A stretch of 40,790 bases of DNA from a virus, in IMG/VR virus record IMGVR_UViG_3300027734_000132, positions 1-40,790 of that record; one strand, given 5' to 3'. A program made the translations under genes and the position numbers. Shown here in pieces: positions 1 to 40,790 of this stretch. The notes under the pieces were generated by a model. That model worked only from the letters and a program-made list of their open reading frames with translations, had not been told where the DNA came from and ran no database searches. Within the stretch, counting starts at the first letter, position 1, and each line of letters begins with the position of its first letter.

Positions 1-155
1 ACTTTTAGATAACTTTTTTGTAATAGATAAAAATTAGATAACTTTAAGATAACTTTTTTGTGCCAAATCCAGAGCCTAGGAAGTGGTCAGAAAATGGCTT
101 GCGAACAAGCCAAATCCGTCACCTGAGGTTTTTGGTATAGATTTTGGGAACCGAA
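1..155. repeat. Left copy of the 155-bp terminal repeat
   Basis: Identical to 40636-40790 except that base 29 is A here and G at 40664. A direct repeat at both contig ends is what a circular or circularly permuted genome gives when assembled linearly. The single mismatch could be an assembly error, population variation, or a real diverged duplication. It contains GTTATC-type sites (36-53) and a 7-bp hairpin (95-112). Confidence 0.93.
36..53 (-). promoter_or_regulatory. Tandem GTTATC site (11-bp period)
   Basis: Read on the minus strand this is GTTATCTTAAAGTTATCT: two GTTATC words whose starts are 11 bp apart, one helical turn. The same arrangement occurs at 445-460, 5566-5581 and 40631-40648. 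This copy is duplicated at 40671-40688 by the terminal repeat. It is probably a binding site for a phage or host regulator, or an origin iteron; which one cannot be told from sequence. Confidence 0.55.
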
Positions 156-402
156 GTCCAATTGCGCCGTGTGCAAAATTAGTTTGGTAGTGCGTTCCTA
201 GGCAATTCGTTTTAGGAATACCAATGTTGCTCGGTGGTTGTCGCTTGCCACCGCGCCTGATAAGCAATCAGGGAAAAAAGCACCATCTAACGGTGGGTTA
301 ATGCGGTAGCCAGCCGCACCCGAGATTCGTCCACCTCGGTAGTGGGGTGGACCATATACCAAACCAAAGGAAAAACGCCGAGAAGGACGATTCTCGGCGT
401 TT
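74..402 (+). ncRNA. Dense stem-loop region, candidate structured RNA
   Basis: No convincing gene lies between 1 and 552. By eye I find successive hairpins: 95-101/106-112 with a CGAA loop, 195-200/213-218, 232-237/248-253, 256-261/267-272, 281-284/292-295, 303-306/314-317, 331-337/344-350 (one G-U), and a perfect 12-bp stem 373-384/391-402 with a 6-base loop. In addition GCCTAGGA at 74-81 pairs perfectly with 196-203, an alternative long-range stem. The last stem could act as a terminator but lacks a clear T run. Strand is uncertain because most stems are symmetric. I do not recognise a known RNA family, and it is not a tRNA. Single-sequence folding by eye is weak evidence. Confidence 0.4.
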
Positions 403-444
403 CCAAGGAGAAGCCTAAAGGCTACCTAAAACCTTGTCAAACCT

Positions 445-460
445 GTTATCTAAAAGTTAC
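445..460 (+). promoter_or_regulatory. GTTATC site upstream of promoter P1
   Basis: GTTATCTAAAAGTTAC carries GTTA twice with 11-bp spacing. It ends exactly 19 bp before the -35 box of P1, the same distance as in P2 and P3, which puts its centre near -61. A GAAACGC word (465-471) lies between site and -35, as it does in P2. Confidence 0.55.
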
Positions 461-479
461 ATAGGAAACGCGGTAGAGG

Positions 480-507
480 TTTACATTCCATAGAAACAAT
501 ATAGATT
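480..507 (+). promoter_or_regulatory. Early promoter P1 (TTTACA-16-TAGATT)
   Basis: TTTACA at 480-485 and TAGATT at 502-507 with a 16-bp spacer. The same boxes and spacer occur at 5601-5628 and, on the minus strand, at 40586-40613, each just upstream of a gene with an AGGAGG ribosome site. It should drive the rightward early operon beginning at 553. Transcription would begin near 513-515, at the base of the leader hairpin. Confidence 0.7.
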
Positions 508-514
508 AGTTCCT

Positions 515-534
515 ATAAACCAATCAGGGTTTAT
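515..534 (+). promoter_or_regulatory. 5' leader hairpin of the P1 transcript
   Basis: ATAAACC (515-521) pairs with GGTTTAT (528-534) around loop AATCAG. The equivalent hairpins after P2 (5636-5653) and P3 (40559-40580, minus) keep AATCAG in the loop but change stem bases in a compensating way. It sits at the predicted mRNA 5' end, 6 bases before the AGGAGG at 541. It may protect the 5' end or be bound by a regulator. Confidence 0.6.
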
Positions 535-552
535 ATATATAGGAGGCAAAAA

Positions 553-1339: not shown

Positions 1340-1843
1340 GTGCAAACATTTATGCCTTACGACGATTTTAAGTTTACCGCACAAGCGTTGGATAATAAGC
1401 GGCTAGGTAAGCAACGAGTGGAAGCGTGGCAAGTTTTGCGTGCTTTACGCGGCGAAACAAAAGGTTGGGTTAATCATCCAGCAACAGTTATGTGGCGCGG
1501 TTGCGAACAAGCGTTGGTTCATTATGGCATAGTAATATGTGCCGAGTGGCAGGAACGCGGCTTTAAGGATTCACTCCTAGACAAATTTCTAGGTGAATGG
1601 CAAGGCAATCTTCAGTACGAAGAACCTTGGTGGATGGGTTACAACCCACTACATACATCCCATCAGTCTAACTTGTACCGCAAAGACCCAGTTTATTACA
1701 AGGACTTTGCCAACGCCACGGCAGACCTGCCTTATGTGTGGTGCCACCCAGATGGAACCCTGCATCTTGGAACAGAAAAACAAACAAGAAACGCTCAAGA
1801 ATTATTGCAAGCGGTTGTTTACATTCAACCTAATTCAATATAG
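1340..1843 (+). CDS. Pyrimidine-dimer DNA glycosylase-like protein
   Basis: The sequence reads MQTFMPYDDFKFTAQALDNK, then RLGKQRVEAWQVLRAL, WVNHPATVMWRGCEQALVHYG, HTSHQSNLYRKDP and LPYVW, which is the pattern of the Pyr_excise family related to T4 endonuclease V. That family cuts the glycosidic bond at UV pyrimidine dimers and nicks the backbone. The length, 167 residues, is normal. The start is GTG at 1340, two bases after the previous stop, and fits the family N-terminus; no strong ribosome site is seen. A role in repairing UV damage in sunlit water is plausible. Its 3' end overlaps promoter P4. Confidence 0.82.
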   Translation: MQTFMPYDDFKFTAQALDNKRLGKQRVEAWQVLRALRGETKGWVNHPATVMWRGCEQALVHYGIVICAEWQERGFKDSLLDKFLGEWQGNLQYEEPWWMGYNPLHTSHQSNLYRKDPVYYKDFANATADLPYVWCHPDGTLHLGTEKQTRNAQELLQAVVYIQPNSI

Positions 1844-1846
1844 ATT
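1818..1846 (+). promoter_or_regulatory. Internal promoter P4 (TTTACA-17-TAGATT)
   Basis: The boxes TTTACAT...ATATAGATT match P1-P3, but the spacer is 17 and there is no GTTATC site upstream. A different small hairpin follows (GGGC 1856-1859 with GCCC 1865-1868). It overlaps the end of the glycosylase gene and probably boosts expression from 1894 onward. Confidence 0.55.
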
Positions 1847-3529: not shown

Positions 3530-4179
3530 TGGATATCCAAAACCTTCTAAAGGTGGCACTTTATGAGCAAGACGGACAGCGTGATCGTTCGCAACAAACT
3601 CAGTTAGGTGCATCATCAGTTGGCGGATGTAGGCGACAGGCTTGGAGCATCCTTAATGGAGTACCAAAAACAAATGACAACACAGAACACCTTGCCGCAA
3701 TTATTGGCACATCGCTACACGCGACTATTGCTGGTGCAATGGAAGCCGCAGATCCATTTGGTGATGATTTTCTAATTGAGCAAGCGTTTGAAACGGAACA
3801 TCTAAAAGGTCATTGCGATTTATTTATTAAATCAACTGGTACGGTAATTGACTGGAAAACAACCACCAAGAAAAAACTGGCTGAATTCCCAAATGACCAA
3901 CAGCGTATGCAAGTACAACTGTATGGATACCTTATTGAGGAAGCAGGACATATGGTTGCCGAAGTTGCGTTGGTTGCAATTCCGCGTGACGGACAATCAA
4001 AGGATATTAAAGTCCACAGCGAACCTTACAATCGCGAAATGGCGCAACAAGGTTTGGATTGGATTACGGATATTAAATCTAGGACAGAACCACCTGCGCC
4101 CGAAAAGTCAGCATTCTTTTGTAAAAACTATTGTGCTTGGTATGACCAGTCAGGCGAGGTCGGATGTACAGGAAAGTAG
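3529..4179 (+). CDS. Cas4/RecB-like PD-(D/E)XK exonuclease
   Basis: 216 residues from the ATG that overlaps the previous stop. The nuclease core is visible: H64, D97 (GHCDLFI), D108-x-K110 (VIDWKTTTK) and the QxxxY motif (QMQ/QLYGYL, 127-134). Cys at 34, 198, 202 and 213 match the four ligands of the Fe-S cluster of Cas4/AddB-type nucleases. Such enzymes resect DNA ends, here probably to load the annealing protein, SSB and RusA. A role in spacer acquisition is not indicated because there is no CRISPR array or Cas1. An in-frame ATG at 3490 lies inside the preceding gene and is less likely. Confidence 0.82.
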   Translation: MDIQNLLKVALYEQDGQRDRSQQTQLGASSVGGCRRQAWSILNGVPKTNDNTEHLAAIIGTSLHATIAGAMEAADPFGDDFLIEQAFETEHLKGHCDLFIKSTGTVIDWKTTTKKKLAEFPNDQQRMQVQLYGYLIEEAGHMVAEVALVAIPRDGQSKDIKVHSEPYNREMAQQGLDWITDIKSRTEPPAPEKSAFFCKNYCAWYDQSGEVGCTGK

Positions 4180-4532
4180 TTGATAGAAATAAAATTGAAT
4201 GGGAACGCGCATCGTGCCAAGGGTTAGAGACCGATCTATTCTTTACCCCACGAACCGAGTTACTTATTGAAGGACTCAACTACAACCACTTACGCAGAAT
4301 GTGCTTTGACTGTCCAATACAAAAGGAATGTCTACAAGCAGCAACAGCCTTTGAGCCTTATGGATTTTGGGGTGGTTTATCCGAAGATGAACGCCGCCAT
4401 ATTTATGCAGGCAAACTGGACACACGGGTTATGGGATGGCTTAGGCGAGACTTAAAAGCACTTAACATAGGTTTATCAACATTGGTGCAGACCGTGTTGT
4501 CCGTTGAGAGAGATTTTACTTTTAACAAATGA
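4164..4532 (+). CDS. whiB: WhiB-family iron-sulfur transcription regulator
   Basis: 122 residues with the WhiB signature: C18, then C47-x2-C50-x5-C56, which bind a 4Fe-4S cluster, followed by FWGGLSEDER (the G[VI]WGG turn) and a basic region. WhiB proteins bind the host primary sigma factor and alter promoter choice; phage copies can block host regulators. WhiB is confined to actinobacteria and their phages, so this is the best host clue. The reading frame overlaps the nuclease by 16 bases; no later start keeps C18. It is a candidate controller of the TTTACA/TAGAT promoters, by inference only. Confidence 0.92.
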   Translation: MYRKVVDRNKIEWERASCQGLETDLFFTPRTELLIEGLNYNHLRRMCFDCPIQKECLQAATAFEPYGFWGGLSEDERRHIYAGKLDTRVMGWLRRDLKALNIGLSTLVQTVLSVERDFTFNK

Positions 4533-4989: not shown

Positions 4990-5181
4990 ATGACTGTTCT
5001 TAAGAGTATAGATGTAGGTGCTGTACAGGCTGGCGATACCGTAGTCATTCATAAAGATCGTTTTCTCGTTGAGTACTCCGAGCAAGACGGAATTGTTTAT
5101 GAGATGCAACTTACTGATGCAAATGGTAGTAAGGTTCGCAAGTGTCTACTACAAGGCGAGAAGGTCAGTCTAGAGATTTGA
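4990..5181 (+). CDS. Small beta-rich hypothetical protein
   Basis: 63 residues, strongly predicted beta: MTVLKSIDVGAVQAGDTVVI, then LVEYSEQDGIVYEMQLTD. The GDTVVIHKDRFLVEY stretch resembles an SH3-like barrel of the KOW/translation-factor type, a weak resemblance only. AGGAGG lies about 6 bases before the ATG. It is coupled to rusA through a TTGA overlap. Confidence 0.62.
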   Translation: MTVLKSIDVGAVQAGDTVVIHKDRFLVEYSEQDGIVYEMQLTDANGSKVRKCLLQGEKVSLEI

Positions 5182-5564
5182 CCATCGCCTTCAAAGTTGA
5201 AGGCAAACCCATCCAGCAAGGTTCTATGCGTGCATTTAACAACCGCATAGTTCATAACAAGTCAGCCGATTTAATGGCGTGGCGATCTTTGGTTGCACAA
5301 GAAGCGGCTAAAGCGGGTTGCACGCCGATAGAAGGCGCGATAACAATTACATTGAAGTTTAGATATGAACGTCCAAAATCGGTATCCAGACAGCAGCCAA
5401 CGGTTCCACCAGACCTAGACAAGCAAATCCGCAGCATCCTTGATGCCTTAACTGGGGTCGCCTATGTGGATGATTCGCAGGTGGTGAGCATCTACGCTAC
5501 CAAGGAGTACGGACTTCCAGCAGGGGTATCCATTGAACTTACGGGCGGTTTTGACGACCTATAA
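5178..5564 (+). CDS. rusA: RusA-type Holliday junction resolvase
   Basis: 128 residues from TTG 5178, which overlaps the previous stop (TTGA) and begins near the usual RusA N-terminus (IAFKVEGKPIQQGSMRAF). The metal-binding region is clear: PDLDK (78-82), then LDALTGVAYVDDSQV (about 88-102), the Asp residues that cut four-way junctions. An ATG at 5142 in frame would add 12 residues but overlap the upstream gene by 40 bases. It resolves recombination intermediates during replication or before packaging, acting downstream of the annealing protein and SSB. Confidence 0.9.
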   Translation: MTIAFKVEGKPIQQGSMRAFNNRIVHNKSADLMAWRSLVAQEAAKAGCTPIEGAITITLKFRYERPKSVSRQQPTVPPDLDKQIRSILDALTGVAYVDDSQVVSIYATKEYGLPAGVSIELTGGFDDL

Positions 5565-5565
5565 A

Positions 5566-5581
5566 GTTATCAAGTTGTTAC
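5566..5581 (+). promoter_or_regulatory. GTTATC site upstream of promoter P2
   Basis: GTTATCAAGTTGTTAC: GTTA twice, 11 bp apart, ending exactly 19 bp before the -35 box of P2. The middle differs from the P1 copy, while both GTTA words and the spacing are kept. GAAACGC follows at 5587-5593, as in P1. Confidence 0.5.
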
Positions 5582-5600: not shown

Positions 5601-5628
5601 TTTACATCCACCAAAAACCATATAGATT
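5601..5628 (+). promoter_or_regulatory. Early promoter P2 (TTTACA-16-TAGATT)
   Basis: TTTACA 5601-5606 and TAGATT 5623-5628, with the same spacer as P1 and the flank GTAGATGTTTACATC shared with P3. It should drive the operon from 5671 to the terminator at 9222-9262. Confidence 0.7.
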
Positions 5629-5635
5629 AGTGCCA

Positions 5636-5653
5636 TAACCCAATCAGGGGTTA
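5636..5653 (+). promoter_or_regulatory. 5' leader hairpin of the P2 transcript
   Basis: TAACCC (5636-5641) pairs with GGGTTA (5648-5653) around the conserved loop AATCAG. The stem differs from P1 (AAACC/GGTTT) on both sides, so the pairing is maintained. Confidence 0.6.
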
Positions 5654-5670
5654 CCGATTAGGAGGCAAAA

Positions 5671-5922
5671 ATGATATCAACAAATCAAATGCTAGAAAAT
5701 GCAACACAGACTTACAATGGAAAAACTGGTTGTGCTTGTGGCTGCGGTGGTAATTATGACGAAGCAGAATCCGTCGCAGGTCAAAAGCGTATTAAAAAAA
5801 TAATGAATGCAGATCCCGAAAAATTAATTGCTTACGATTTTGGAAATAACGAAGGTTGTATTGAAATAGAAAATCGTGATGGAACTCGCGTTACTCGTGT
5901 CTATTACAAGGTTGGTGCATAA
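5671..5922 (+). CDS. Cys-rich hypothetical protein, first gene of the P2 operon
   Basis: 83 residues with a tight Cys/Gly cluster CACGCGGNY (about 21-29) near the N-terminus, then a charged helix and a beta-rich acidic tail. This cluster looks like a metal-binding turn. The ATG follows AGGAGGCAAAA directly after promoter P2 and its hairpin, so this should be an abundant early product. Function unknown. Confidence 0.68.
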   Translation: MISTNQMLENATQTYNGKTGCACGCGGNYDEAESVAGQKRIKKIMNADPEKLIAYDFGNNEGCIEIENRDGTRVTRVYYKVGA

Positions 5923-9284: not shown

Positions 9285-9848
9285 ATGACCACCATCGCCG
9301 CTATAGAAGGAAATGGGTGGGCTGTAATTGGGTCAGACTCGCAATCATCAGGCGAAGATGGATTTTCTATAGACATACCTGCGGGCAAGATATTTAAGAA
9401 TGGTGAAGCAATAATTGCTGGCGCTGGTGCAGTACGCGGAATCAACTTATTGGAACACGCTTGGGTATGTCCGCCAATAAAAATAGACAACCTAGATAAA
9501 TATGTAACAAGTATTCTAATTCCATCCATACGCAAGTGCTTTGATGCGGCAGATTATGAGTACAAAAAAGACGAAGGTTCAGTACTGCAAGACAATATCT
9601 TTATCATTTGTGTCCGAGGTTGCATCTATCGTATTGACGAAGATTATGGGTGGGAAAGAACTAACGACAACATTTATGTGGCAGGTTCAGGCGAACGATT
9701 TGCTCTTGGCGCACTTGAAGCACTTAAGGCTGGACAATCCGATACTGTAGCCAAAGCCAAAAACTGTATACGCATAGCAATTAAGGCGGCATCCAAGTAT
9801 GATGTCTTTACGGGAGGCGAGATCAAATTTATGGTATCCAATGGATAA
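9285..9848 (+). CDS. HslV/proteasome beta-like Ntn-hydrolase protease subunit
   Basis: 187 residues. MTTIAAIEGNGWAVIGSDSQ aligns with the HslV N-terminus: Thr2 would be the nucleophile after Met removal, Asp18 and Lys35 fit the catalytic Asp and Lys, AGAGA (45-49) the oxyanion glycines, and GSGERFALGALEAL (134-147) the GSG motif with its following helix. The length is close to HslV (about 175). These proteins assemble into barrel proteases that need an ATPase unfoldase, and no HslU, Mpa or ClpX-like gene is visible in this genome. Either a host ATPase is used or it acts alone. It may trim capsid or host regulatory proteins; that is speculation. First gene after a strong terminator, with a leaderless start. 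Confidence 0.8.
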   Translation: MTTIAAIEGNGWAVIGSDSQSSGEDGFSIDIPAGKIFKNGEAIIAGAGAVRGINLLEHAWVCPPIKIDNLDKYVTSILIPSIRKCFDAADYEYKKDEGSVLQDNIFIICVRGCIYRIDEDYGWERTNDNIYVAGSGERFALGALEALKAGQSDTVAKAKNCIRIAIKAASKYDVFTGGEIKFMVSNG

Positions 9849-10194: not shown

Positions 10195-10552
10195 CGCTGG
10201 CGGAGACGCAGAACTTAAATTCATTAAAGGTGCAAAAGGTGATTTTGCCGTCAGCAATTTTAGTCTCGCAGAAACCCCACGCGAATACAAAAATGGTGAG
10301 TGGGTACTAGGCGAGACAGTATGGTGGAAAATTACCGCCACAGGAGATTTGGCTGAGTGGACAGCAGACACACCACTAAAAGGTACCAAGTTGCTTGTAA
10401 AGGGCGACCTAAAGGCATTTGAATATAAAGGTCGCGATGGTGAAATTAAGTCAGGCTTTGAAGTTAAAGCAAAAATGATTGCGGTTGTTGGCACTTTAAA
10501 GCGCAAGACGGCAGCACCTAAAACAGAGGGAAATCAAGAATGGCCGTTTTAA
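10169..10552 (+). CDS. ssb: Single-stranded DNA-binding protein
   Basis: 127 residues. An OB-fold SSB pattern is seen: IEIIGNAGGDAELKFI, KGDFAVSNFSLAETPREYKN, ETVWWKITATGDLAEW, LLVKGDLKAFEYKGRDG. The C-terminus WPF resembles the protein-docking tip of bacterial SSBs, although the linker is short and less acidic. ATG 10169 has AGAAGG 8 bases upstream; GTG 10160 is an alternative. It protects phage single strands and probably works with the annealing protein, Cas4-like nuclease and RusA. Confidence 0.88.
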   Translation: MAQIEIIGNAGGDAELKFIKGAKGDFAVSNFSLAETPREYKNGEWVLGETVWWKITATGDLAEWTADTPLKGTKLLVKGDLKAFEYKGRDGEIKSGFEVKAKMIAVVGTLKRKTAAPKTEGNQEWPF

Positions 10553-10719
10553 TTACCAGCACCGAAGTTTGTGAACTTTTGGGCATAACACCTAACAACC
10601 TCTACCAAATGCAATACCGCAAACAAATTGTGTGGGTGGAGAAAGTAGGCAGAAATGCTCTTTATGACCGCGAACAGGTAGAAGCGTATAAGGCGAAACG
10701 AGATCATCGTTCCTTATGA
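10540..10719 (+). CDS. Excisionase/MerR-type HTH protein A
   Basis: 59 residues, overlapping ssb by 13 bases. ITSTEVCELLGITPNNLYQM and the following RKQIVWVEKVGRNALYDREQ with EAYKAKR is the HTH-17/Xis-like pattern. No integrase is encoded, so it is more likely a repressor or DNA-bending cofactor than an excisionase. A second member of the same type lies at 11320. Confidence 0.72.
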   Translation: MAVLITSTEVCELLGITPNNLYQMQYRKQIVWVEKVGRNALYDREQVEAYKAKRDHRSL

Positions 10720-11333
10720 AATGTGTCCTGTGCCGCAAATCCACAGAACGTTCAGTATGTGAGTCGTGCTGGGATTTTGCCTTGACAAAATTAAAGGCTT
10801 TCCCAGACAAATACTTTGAACTTGAAAAGGAATTGCTGCCCAGTAAAGGGTATGGAGAGAAGGTAGGCGGAAGTAAGACACCGCCTATCCCTGTCCGATT
10901 AGAGACATTGGACTTGCGTACTGGGGGCATCAGCAAGCCAATAACCGCGCACGAATTAAAGATTAGAGTCGTGCGTGAACATACTCGCATTACATTCAGG
11001 GGCGAGGAAATTAACAAAATCAAGATGACGGTCAAATACATTACGGGTCAATCCGAGTGGATTTTTGAGCACTACCAAGAACTAGATAATCTTACGAAAG
11101 ACATTAACAACATAAGTAACCGCATATCTAGTGTCTTGGGGTACAAGTCCGACCTAGTTTCTATCGGCACCTGCCCAGCGCAGGATGATAAGGGCGAAGT
11201 ATGCGGTGCCAAGTTGCTTGTTGATCCCAAAACATTGACCAATTTTAATGACATTAAGTGCCGAGCCTGTGGAACTTCGTGGGATAGTGCTAAATGGCGT
11301 TTGCTGGGTAAGGTGCTAAGTGCTGACTCTTAA
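10716..11333 (+). CDS. Zinc-ribbon protein between the two HTH genes
   Basis: 205 residues, overlapping the HTH gene by ATGA. It opens with CVLC (3-6) and VCESC (about 15-19), has a long helical middle (EWIFEHYQELDNLTKDINNI), and ends with CPAQDDKGEVCGAKLLVDP then CRACGTSWDSAKWRLLG, a second zinc ribbon. This double-ribbon architecture recurs in actinophages next to HTH genes but has no assigned function. Likely DNA binding with the HTH partner. Confidence 0.62.
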   Translation: MKCVLCRKSTERSVCESCWDFALTKLKAFPDKYFELEKELLPSKGYGEKVGGSKTPPIPVRLETLDLRTGGISKPITAHELKIRVVREHTRITFRGEEINKIKMTVKYITGQSEWIFEHYQELDNLTKDINNISNRISSVLGYKSDLVSIGTCPAQDDKGEVCGAKLLVDPKTLTNFNDIKCRACGTSWDSAKWRLLGKVLSADS

Positions 11334-11481
11334 AGAAGCAATGAGGATGTTTAAAGTATCCCAAGCCACCATCTACAGATGGGCAAAAAAAGATGACATC
11401 AAAAGTAAGATAATCGGTGGGGCAAGATACTACGACATTGACGATTTGCAAAACGCGTATATGAAACGCCACATTAGTTAA
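11320..11481 (+). CDS. Excisionase/MerR-type HTH protein B
   Basis: 53 residues from GTG 11320, overlapping the previous gene by 14 bases with AAGG about 7 bases upstream. LTLKEAMRMFKVSQATIYRW, then KIIGGARYYDIDDLQNAYM is a compact HTH-17 fold. It resembles the protein at 10540 in layout, so the two may be paralogues. ATG 11341 would remove the first helix and is less likely. Confidence 0.7.
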   Translation: MLTLKEAMRMFKVSQATIYRWAKKDDIKSKIIGGARYYDIDDLQNAYMKRHIS

Positions 11482-22071: not shown

Positions 22072-23958
22072 ATGGGTCTGTTTGACAGATTTGCAAAACG
22101 CGTTGCAGATGAAATCGTTAAGGCACCAAATCTTCCTGCTGGTGCTGGAACAATGACTATGCAACAAATGCAGAGTGCTGCTGGTATTGCCCAGACTCAG
22201 TACGGCTCAAATGTAAGTACAGCCTTACCTCGTAACCCGCTACTTGCAAGTGTTCCTTTTGCTCCTGGTATGCCTATCTTTCCTGGAGCCATTAACCCGC
22301 TTCGTACAGATACAGGTCGCCCAGACCCGCGCCGTTATGAATTCCAAGTTGCTCAAAACATCAACGTATCTGATAACAGACTTGTACCTTTTAAGACTTT
22401 GCGTGCAGTATCAGATCAAATTGATATCGTGCGCCGTTGTATTGAAGTAAGAAAGTCTAAAATTACTTCCCTAAAGTGGGACATTGTGCTTAGTGAAGCC
22501 GCAACAGAGCGCATCATCTCGGAACAAGGTGGTAATCACCTTACTGCGCTTGCTCAATCACGCGAAGAGTTTTCAGCAGAGATTGGTCGTTTGCGTAAGT
22601 TTTGGGAAACGCCAGACCCTCAAAATGGTTTGTCTTTTGTGGACTGGTTGTCAATGGCGATGGAAGAAATAGATGTTCTTGATGCTTGGGCTATATGGCC
22701 ACAGGTAACTGTAGGCGGTGAAATTAGAGGGTTCCAAATCCTTGACGGTTCAACTATTAAACCCCTACTTGATGATCGCGGTATGCGCCCAGAGCCAAGT
22801 TCTGGTCCAGCATTCCAACAAATTCTTTTTGGCTTCCCACGCTCAGAGTTTAATGCTGGAATAGATGATGAGGTTGCGGATGGCGAATTTACCTCGGATG
22901 ACCTTGCTTATTTTGTACGCAATCGTCGTTCCAATAGTGTGTATGGACTATCTCCTACAGAGCGTTGCTTACCACTTGCTGATATTTACTTGCGTCGCCA
23001 ACAATGGATTCGTTCAGAGTTCACAGATGGCACAATGCCTAAGTCATACTTAGAGTTGCCTGAATCAACCACTATGACGCCTGACCAAATCAGAGCATAT
23101 GAAGATATCTATAATGACGATCTATCAGGACAAACAGCACAGCGTAATCGTATGCGCTTGTTAGTTCCTGGTGGCAAATTACATTTTGAAGAAGGTTACT
23201 CAGATAAGTTCTCGGATGCGATGGATAACTACTTAGTCTCATCTATTACTGGACACTTTGGCGTACTACCATCTGAAATTGGGTTCAATGGCGGTGGTGG
23301 CGGGTTAGGTGCATCAGGTCTACAGCAAGGTGAGGCACAATCAGGCGAAGCAATCGGCATCTTGCCTACCGCTAACTGGGTTTCGCAAATGATTTCGGCA
23401 CTTTCATATCGTTTTCTTGGGATGCCACGCGAACTAGAGTTCCGCCTCGCACCTAGCGAGCGCACTAATACTGCTGAGACAGCATCGCGAGATGATATTC
23501 GCAAGAAGAATGGTTCAATAACCCTTAATGAGAACCGTGCGGAACTTGGTTTACCTCTTATTGAAACACCTGAGGCTGATATGCCAATGCTTGTCGCTGG
23601 TCCAAGTATTTATTTCTTCGGTCCTGATGGTCTTATCCCAGCAGTACCTCCAGTAGACCCACTTGCGGGATTTGGAACGGAAGAAGAACCTGCCGCTGAC
23701 GAAGTACCTGTCGCTGACGAAAAACCTGTGGAGGAAGTACCTGTAGAGGCAAATCCTGAAGATAAGCCTGAAGCCAAACCTGTTGATGCTGAGGAAGAAG
23801 TAAAAAAATTCCTTCGCTGGTTACGCAAAGGAACACCTTCGCGAGCATTTGAATTTCAAGTACTAGATGAAACATATGCCGAAATCTTAAATAAGTTTGT
23901 TGATACTAAGGATGTAGATAGCGCTCGTTGGTACGCGGAACATTATCTAGGTATCTAA
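22072..23958 (+). CDS. Portal protein
   Basis: 628 residues from ATG 22072 with TAGGAG five bases upstream (GTG 22066 is an alternative). It carries the actinophage portal pattern: RRYEFQVAQNINVSDNRLVP, DQIDIVRRCIEVRKSKITSL, the central VRNRRSNSVYGLSPTERCLP, and TGHFGVLPSEIGFNGGGG. A C-terminal Pro/Glu/Val-rich, acidic linker (about 535-590) separates the core from a short helical end. Twelve copies form the ring for DNA entry. Confidence 0.9.
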   Translation: MGLFDRFAKRVADEIVKAPNLPAGAGTMTMQQMQSAAGIAQTQYGSNVSTALPRNPLLASVPFAPGMPIFPGAINPLRTDTGRPDPRRYEFQVAQNINVSDNRLVPFKTLRAVSDQIDIVRRCIEVRKSKITSLKWDIVLSEAATERIISEQGGNHLTALAQSREEFSAEIGRLRKFWETPDPQNGLSFVDWLSMAMEEIDVLDAWAIWPQVTVGGEIRGFQILDGSTIKPLLDDRGMRPEPSSGPAFQQILFGFPRSEFNAGIDDEVADGEFTSDDLAYFVRNRRSNSVYGLSPTERCLPLADIYLRRQQWIRSEFTDGTMPKSYLELPESTTMTPDQIRAYEDIYNDDLSGQTAQRNRMRLLVPGGKLHFEEGYSDKFSDAMDNYLVSSITGHFGVLPSEIGFNGGGGGLGASGLQQGEAQSGEAIGILPTANWVSQMISALSYRFLGMPRELEFRLAPSERTNTAETASRDDIRKKNGSITLNENRAELGLPLIETPEADMPMLVAGPSIYFFGPDGLIPAVPPVDPLAGFGTEEEPAADEVPVADEKPVEEVPVEANPEDKPEAKPVDAEEEVKKFLRWLRKGTPSRAFEFQVLDETYAEILNKFVDTKDVDSARWYAEHYLGI

Positions 23959-40546: not shown

Positions 40547-40558
40547 TTTGCCTCCTTT

Positions 40559-40580
40559 CATAACCCCTGATTAGGTTATG
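40559..40580 (-). promoter_or_regulatory. 5' leader hairpin of the P3 transcript
   Basis: CATAACC pairs with GGTTATG (7 bp) around a loop containing AATCAG, as in P1 and P2. The stem sequence differs on both sides while pairing is kept. Confidence 0.6.
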
Positions 40581-40585
40581 GTTCT

Positions 40586-40613
40586 ATTCTATATTGTTGT
40601 CGGTAGATGTAAA
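40586..40613 (-). promoter_or_regulatory. Early promoter P3 (TTTACA-16-TAGAAT), minus strand
   Basis: On the minus strand TTTACA (40613-40608) and TAGAAT (40591-40586) have a 16-bp spacer, like P1 and P2, and the flank GTTTACATC is shared. It drives the leftward mini-gene. Confidence 0.7.
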
Positions 40614-40630: not shown

Positions 40631-40648
40631 GTATAACTTTTAGATAAC
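40631..40648 (-). promoter_or_regulatory. GTTATC site upstream of promoter P3
   Basis: On the minus strand: GTTATCTAAAAGTTATAC. The 16-bp core ends 19 bp before the P3 -35 box, the same as for P1 and P2. Another tandem pair follows at 40671-40688. Confidence 0.55.
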
Positions 40649-40790
40649 TTTTTTGTAATAGATGAAAATTAGATAACTTTAAGATAACTTTTTTGTGCCA
40701 AATCCAGAGCCTAGGAAGTGGTCAGAAAATGGCTTGCGAACAAGCCAAATCCGTCACCTGAGGTTTTTGGTATAGATTTTGGGAACCGAA
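40636..40790. repeat. Right copy of the 155-bp terminal repeat
   Basis: Repeats bases 1-155 with one mismatch (G40664 versus A29). Joining the copies places promoters P3 and P1 about 500 bases apart, back to back, around the GTTATC sites and the stem-loop region. Confidence 0.93.

Follow-up and report, generated by a model that had tools for sequence, protein, structure and literature searches.

Three copies of a promoter module with a paired upstream site and a covarying 5' hairpin in a tailed-phage genome

The phage genome and its three promoter modules

The window (the whole stretch of DNA analysed, 40,790 nucleotides, IMG/VR record IMGVR_UViG_3300027734_000132; G000 among the genomes compared below) is a tailed-phage genome encoding a large terminase, portal, head protease, tail fibre, RusA, a Cas4-like exonuclease and a ParB-like protein. 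The record ends duplicate each other (1-155 = 40636-40790, with one mismatch, at position 37). This 155-nt overlap implies that the map probably closes, giving a genome of ~40,635 bp, despite the absence of a circular flag for the record in IMG/VR, and that P1 and P3, two of the three modules considered here, diverge out of one shared intergenic region. The WhiB protein is an actinophage hallmark (PMC10202952), and the one encoded in the window indicates that the host of the virus is an uncultured actinobacterium; the relatives of its RusA in named phages come mostly from phages of Mycobacterium, Gordonia and Arthrobacter. Rfam scans of the window at gathering and permissive thresholds yielded a tRNA-Gln as the sole credible match and nothing credible at P1. 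The protein of 9285-9848, within the phage genome, weakly matches the Pfam proteasome subunit family (E 3e-5). The features that enter into the argument are the following.

445..460, plus strand: P1 paired site GTTATCTAAAAGTTAC, the proposed MtrA-type box
461..479, plus strand: P1 19-bp gap, with the conserved GAAACGCSGTAG element adjoining the -35 (module alignment)
480..507, plus strand: P1 promoter core TTTACA-N16-TAGATT (TTTACA 480-485; TAGATT 502-507)
514..535, plus strand: P1 5' hairpin, loop AATCAG at 522-527 (covariation and folding)
541..550, plus strand: P1 ribosome-binding site AGGAGGCAAA, followed by a 38-aa ORF at 553
1818..1846, plus strand: fourth promoter, TTTACA-N17-TATAGATT, without a GTTA site
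4164..4532, plus strand: WhiB family protein, pointing to an actinobacterial host
5142..5564, plus strand: rusA-like resolvase gene, the constant upstream neighbour of P2 among relatives
5566..5581, plus strand: P2 paired site GTTATCAAGTTGTTAC, the window's best match to the C. glutamicum MtrA consensus
5601..5628, plus strand: P2 promoter core TTTACA-N16-TAGATT (TTTACA 5601; TAGATT 5623)
5636..5653, plus strand: P2 5' hairpin TAACCC-AATCAG-GGGTTA (loop 5642-5647)
5660..5669, plus strand: P2 ribosome-binding site AGGAGGCAAA, followed by an ORF at 5671-5922
40547..40556, minus strand: P3 ribosome-binding site AGGAGGCAAA, followed by an ORF at 40546-40415
40559..40580, minus strand: P3 5' hairpin CATAACCT-AATCAG-GGGTTATG (loop 40572-40567)
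40586..40613, minus strand: P3 promoter core TTTACA-N16-TAGAAT (TTTACA 40613; TAGAAT 40591)
40633..40648, minus strand: P3 paired site GTTATCTAAAAGTTAT
40674..40688, minus strand: second paired site GTTATCTTAAAGTTA, upstream of P3

All three modules lie where the initial annotation had placed them, and each has the spacing that it described: a GTTA pair, a 19-bp gap, TTTACA and a 16-bp spacer. P1, P2 and P3 are mutually 76-80% identical across ~105 nt; no other stretch in the rest of the window matches them, and the exact arrangement of site, gap and TTTACA is confined to these three places. The gap is itself partly conserved, with GAAACGCCGTAG ahead of the -35. GTTA-N7-GTTA occurs 6 times in the window (a count that includes one duplicate copy from the overlapping record ends), against a mean of 1.7 in shuffled sequence, and none of 100 shuffles reached 6. 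The folding z-scores of the hairpins are -3.4 (P1), -1.8 (P2) and -4.0 (P3). The fourth promoter, with its leader at 1818-1893, sits at the end of a Pyr_excise gene; the hairpin of this leader is of another class, GGGC-AAGGC-GCCC, and is compensated in the related genome G002 as GGAC-ATGGC-GTCC.

The genes behind the modules are mostly short ORFs (~37-121 aa), many of them without families, that differ and swap places among relatives: the gene after P3 in G002, for example, is by eye related to the one that follows P2 in G001 and G006. The module works as a plug-in cassette for expressing small phage genes, and it illustrates how phages retain regulatory parts while exchanging the small genes that these serve. 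'Early' timing, for which gene content (rusA, exonuclease, WhiB and small accessory genes) is the sole basis, is plausible.

Conservation of the module parts among relatives

Relatives of the window, comprising tens of viral contigs, were collected through portal, RusA and other searches, and the near-complete ones were examined whole; G001, G002 and G006 have three to five leaders apiece. The parts of the module persist in related contigs while the intervening DNA changes. The paired site is kept ~61 bp upstream of the predicted start and the stems covary, as the initial annotation had anticipated.

The least biased set for comparison is the region after rusA, picked by RusA homology alone, of which there are 18 distinct representatives. 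A hairpin lies between promoter and ribosome-binding site in 18 of 18, at RusA identities down to 45%, and the GTTA pair is present in 13 of the 18. In the L088 region the sequence TAAC-N7-TAAC amounts to a GTTA pair on the opposite strand; the regions of G007, G009, G010 and G012 have the hairpin and no GTTA pair in either orientation. The hairpin is therefore more widespread than the site. It also stands without a paired site at 42113 and 36524 (both minus strand) in G002, in the 23664 leader of G006 and in all leaders of G010 and G012. The existence of these hairpin-only promoters establishes that the paired site is not required for the hairpin and that site and hairpin do not form a single invariable unit. 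The earlier reading of control at the level of both DNA and RNA is upheld for each level; its extension to a single regulon with both is too strong.

One clade among these post-rusA regions is L090-L097. The -35 and spacer are wholly different here (TACCGTAAGGTA, with no TTTACA), yet the GTTA pair and the hairpin are kept, so that both appear to be selected, separately. The first GTTA half overlaps the rusA stop codon in these regions (the pair is flagged only when the searched region includes that codon), and conservation of the site may therefore be partly coding. The same regions bear on the proposal that the three modules are alike only as recent functionless duplicates, which their 76-80% identity might suggest: P2 orthologues with an unrelated -35 and spacer that nevertheless retain pair and hairpin make it barely credible. 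In L090 and L092, which are relatives of P2, the presumed -10 lies four bp further off. The replacement TACCGTAAGGTA is a near-palindrome, and its near reverse complement, ATACCTTACGGT, occupies the same place in G010.

A blastn search with P1 gave no match among the named phages of INPHARED. The module pattern, run against 84,980 GTDB species genomes, met 5 unrelated Bacillota-type sequences and one from Idiomarinaceae, all judged to be chance; there is thus no sign of host promoters or prophages with this exact arrangement. Loop-agnostic promoter patterns applied to viral contigs retrieved this group and chance matches only.

The hairpin at the predicted 5' end of the message

Transcription normally starts 4-7 nt past the -10 hexamer. 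The 5' foot of the hairpin lies 4-7 nt after that hexamer, so that the message, if its start is placed by the -10 box, would open directly with a closed helix; the hairpin ends 3-8 nt ahead of the ribosome-binding site. The AATCAG loop with compensating stems that had been ascribed to the modules is found in all three, and the stems covary strongly among leaders. In 29 hairpins the inner five pairs hold in 143 of 145 instances, against 78 +/- 6.5 with the 3' arms shuffled (0 of 20000 trials), and among the 17 hexaloop hairpins 88% of cells are paired (52% shuffled, 22-45% slid), 46 cells are double-changed (against 16.5) and 7 of the 8 pairs have both sides altered in at least one place; paralogous and orthologous leaders enter these counts as separate rows, so that kinship can inflate the contrast with shuffles, and the slide control, which retains relatedness, agrees with the shuffle control in direction. 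Retention of the inner pairs at this level argues that the hairpin acts as RNA. An inverted repeat at +1 might alternatively be a DNA operator, its position at the transcription start being suitable for a repressor; since the arms change compensatingly about a fixed spacer, the opposite of operator behaviour, this is very improbable. A genome-wide scan with a +1-hairpin descriptor returned 35 rows (several leaders counted twice) against 5-25 in Markov controls, which is not cleanly above those controls, and the case for the hairpin therefore rests on orthologous positions and covariation.

The loop is AATCAG in G000 and G002 and A[CT]ACGG in G001, G006, L089 and L093; in distant clades it is AAAACGG, T[AG]AACGG or AACGG. 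Its C and final G are retained nearly always. A further class of +1 hairpin, whose loop is AAATA and whose 9-bp stems covary, follows a TATAAT box at 22610 in G010 and 38794 in G012 (both minus strand).

The pyrophosphohydrolase requires at least 2 unpaired 5' nucleotides (PMC3997798, which cites classic E. coli work on 5' stem-loops), so that an end closed in a helix resists it, and the likeliest role of the phage hairpin is protection of the mRNA 5' end. As predicted from the -10 box, the phage mRNA would start at the hairpin foot, like the stabilising leaders of E. coli ompA and papA, and its secondary structure is conserved by compensatory change, as in 5'-terminal stabilising stem-loops; in contrast to the ompA and papA leaders, many phage leaders share the loop and its placement, and a dedicated promoter accompanies the hairpin.

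The main rival is recognition in trans: a phage factor, either protein or RNA, would read the loop, and the hairpin would principally serve as its target in the control of translation, decay or termination. The N proteins of phages recognise boxB, and lambda N/boxB leaders are comparable in that they, too, are phage leaders whose short hairpin has a loop specific to the clade; they differ in that no boxA or N-like protein was recognised here and that the present hairpin lies at +1 of each promoter. The loop is uniform in a genome's GTTA-class leaders (AATCAG in 3 of 3 in G000 and in 5 of 5 in G002), its type differs between clades while the stems vary freely, and the loops at the P1 and P2 positions have changed in parallel. 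A 63-aa protein (4990-5181; 75% identical in G002, ~34% in G001 and G006) provides a weak lead to such a factor: it belongs to no firm family, and its divergence parallels the hairpin loop type. However, the 1818 leader in the window and the AAATA class in G010 and G012 break the uniformity of loops, which weakens it as evidence for a trans factor; the genomes G000 and G002 are sister to each other, and one ancestral change combined with recombination could explain what uniformity there is; nor was a boxA-like sequence recognised, by eye, beside the hairpin. A loop-reading factor as the principal explanation is accordingly possible though doubtful, and 5'-end protection is the role that we prefer.

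The paired site and its candidate activator

The consensus of the paired site over 24 modules is GTTATCAAAAWGTTAY; in these modules GTTA-N7-GTTA constitutes two direct repeats with an 11-bp period. The distance from site start to -10 hexamer is 57-59 bp in 18 of the 19 modules measured. The exception, P1 of G002 (48), lies about one helical turn nearer, so that the site behaves as would that of an activator confined to one helix face. In P1-P3 the site is centred near -61, upstream of the -35 (relative to the predicted starts). DnaA boxes were considered for the GTTATC repeats and rejected: C is not invariant at position 6, and the second half reads GTTAY.

MtrA, the response regulator of the MtrAB system of Actinobacteria, was put forward as the activator after the spacing had been seen. 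Its C. glutamicum consensus is (A/G)TAACAATttn(A/G)TAACAAT, with reverse complement ATTGTTAYNAAATTGTTAY (PMC3353115). The paired site matches published MtrA-binding consensuses, including that of C. glutamicum, GTTAYNAAATTGTTAY (reverse complement); the Streptomyces form GTnAcC-n5-GTnAcn (PMC13189361; PMC5650626) fits as well. The non-seed positions agree with the MtrA consensus: T/Y at 5 and Y at 16 are each found in 23 of the 24 modules, and AAA at 7-9 in 19, 23 and 20 of the 24, respectively; positions 10-11 are mixed A/T. The P2 sites of G001 and G006 are letter for letter the 16-bp core of the C. glutamicum consensus, and no place scores higher against that consensus than P2 in the window (15/18), in G003 (15/18) and likewise in G001 and G006 (16/18), a match of 14-15/18 to the 19-bp consensus being not very rare alone; at P1 and P3 the scores are below that of P2. 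Activation by MtrA takes place from sites upstream of the -35 (PMC3353115), and its whiI site is at -69 to -53 (PMC5650626). The modules thus resemble the MtrA regulon in their 11-bp-period direct repeat, GTTAY..GTTAY, and in a position upstream of the -35 like that at MtrA-activated genes; they differ in that these putative sites are on phage promoters.

OmpR-type response regulators commonly bind direct repeats of such architecture (PMC3353115). No OmpR-type (Trans_reg_C) protein was found in the eight phage genomes tested, 10 control genomes being positive, and such a regulator would therefore be the host's. GlnR-type sites and the PHO-box share the direct-repeat architecture of other OmpR-type regulators, so that another host protein using an 11-bp repeat, for example of PhoP/RegX3 or GlnR type, might be the one that binds; it is an unlikely occupant, since the C. 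glutamicum PhoR motif CCTGTGAAaatCCTGTGAA does not fit and the GTTA half-site suits MtrA best. Less probable again is a small phage-encoded helix-turn-helix protein oligomerising head to tail. The window contains candidates (10540-10719 and 11320-11481, HTH_17/BldC- or excisionase-like), BldC is a precedent for direct-repeat binding, and P3 has an extended array of half-sites. But the BldC unit is 9 bp, AATTXXXX(C), as against the 11-bp period and GTTA cores of the phage site (a BldC-type site was rejected on this spacing), and one or both candidate proteins are also present in G007, G009, G010 and G012, which have no pair at P2. Our proposal is that a host activator, of which MtrA is the likeliest candidate, occupies the paired site.

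A parallel among actinophages is with the SAS/ESAS elements of cluster K mycobacteriophages (PMC3203893), which are also repeated regulatory modules; they precede some of the non-structural genes, stop at the ribosome-binding site and have clade-specific sequence variants. SAS is the 13-bp GGGATAGGAGCCC at start codons and ESAS a pair of 17-bp inverted repeats (PMC3203893); the module described here is, unlike ESAS, an 11-bp-period direct repeat with a short hairpin, and a search for SAS (GGGATAGGAGCCC) with up to 2 mismatches gave 0 matches.

A model of the module

The overall explanation that we favour, with a probability of roughly 0.45, is that MtrA-type site, promoter and 5'-protecting hairpin together form a cassette for expressing the small phage genes that follow. 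By comparison among relatives, the direct repeat GTTATC-n5-GTTAY, with its 11-bp period, is held at a near-fixed distance upstream of the promoter, and the predicted mRNA begins within ~1-2 bases of the covarying hairpin. Two protomers of a host OmpR-type response regulator, most likely MtrA, would bind the repeat and recruit RNA polymerase from about -61, in class I-like fashion; the hairpin would leave almost no unpaired 5' nucleotides, thereby shielding the transcript from 5'-end-dependent decay, with the ribosome-binding site staying open just downstream. The loop is also under selection and may be recognised. The original observation is in this way upheld and refined: its elements can be separated, the host probably supplies the activator, with MtrA as the best candidate, and the hairpin is the more general of the two elements.

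The virus may, then, tie its own genes to a host master regulator. If true, the model connects phages of uncultured actinobacteria in concrete terms with a two-component system conserved in their hosts, and it supplies a defined 22-nt RNA element as the mark of where phage messages begin. A bolder version, in which actinophages wire accessory genes to host MtrA through the -61 boxes and a phage factor reads the loop, is unlikely as a whole; were it true, host physiology would gate phage expression at the DNA level, MtrA having a master role in the regulation of cell division and the envelope, and a phage signal would tune expression at the RNA level through the loop of the covarying hairpin.

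A separate non-coding RNA between P3 and P1

A conserved, strongly covarying multi-stem non-coding RNA of ~340 nt (window 62-405, plus strand) lies between P3 and P1 and is unrelated to the modules. It gave no match to Rfam 15 in gathering and permissive scans, and none by blastn to the named phages of INPHARED. It has a conserved hairpin, TAGGCRRYTCGTNNTA, and ends in a terminator-like hairpin (375-402). Homologues, some very divergent, are found in more than 20 viral contigs, and compensated changes occur in 16 of the 24 predicted pairs (17 sequences); the region has the appearance of a novel phage RNA family with several stems.
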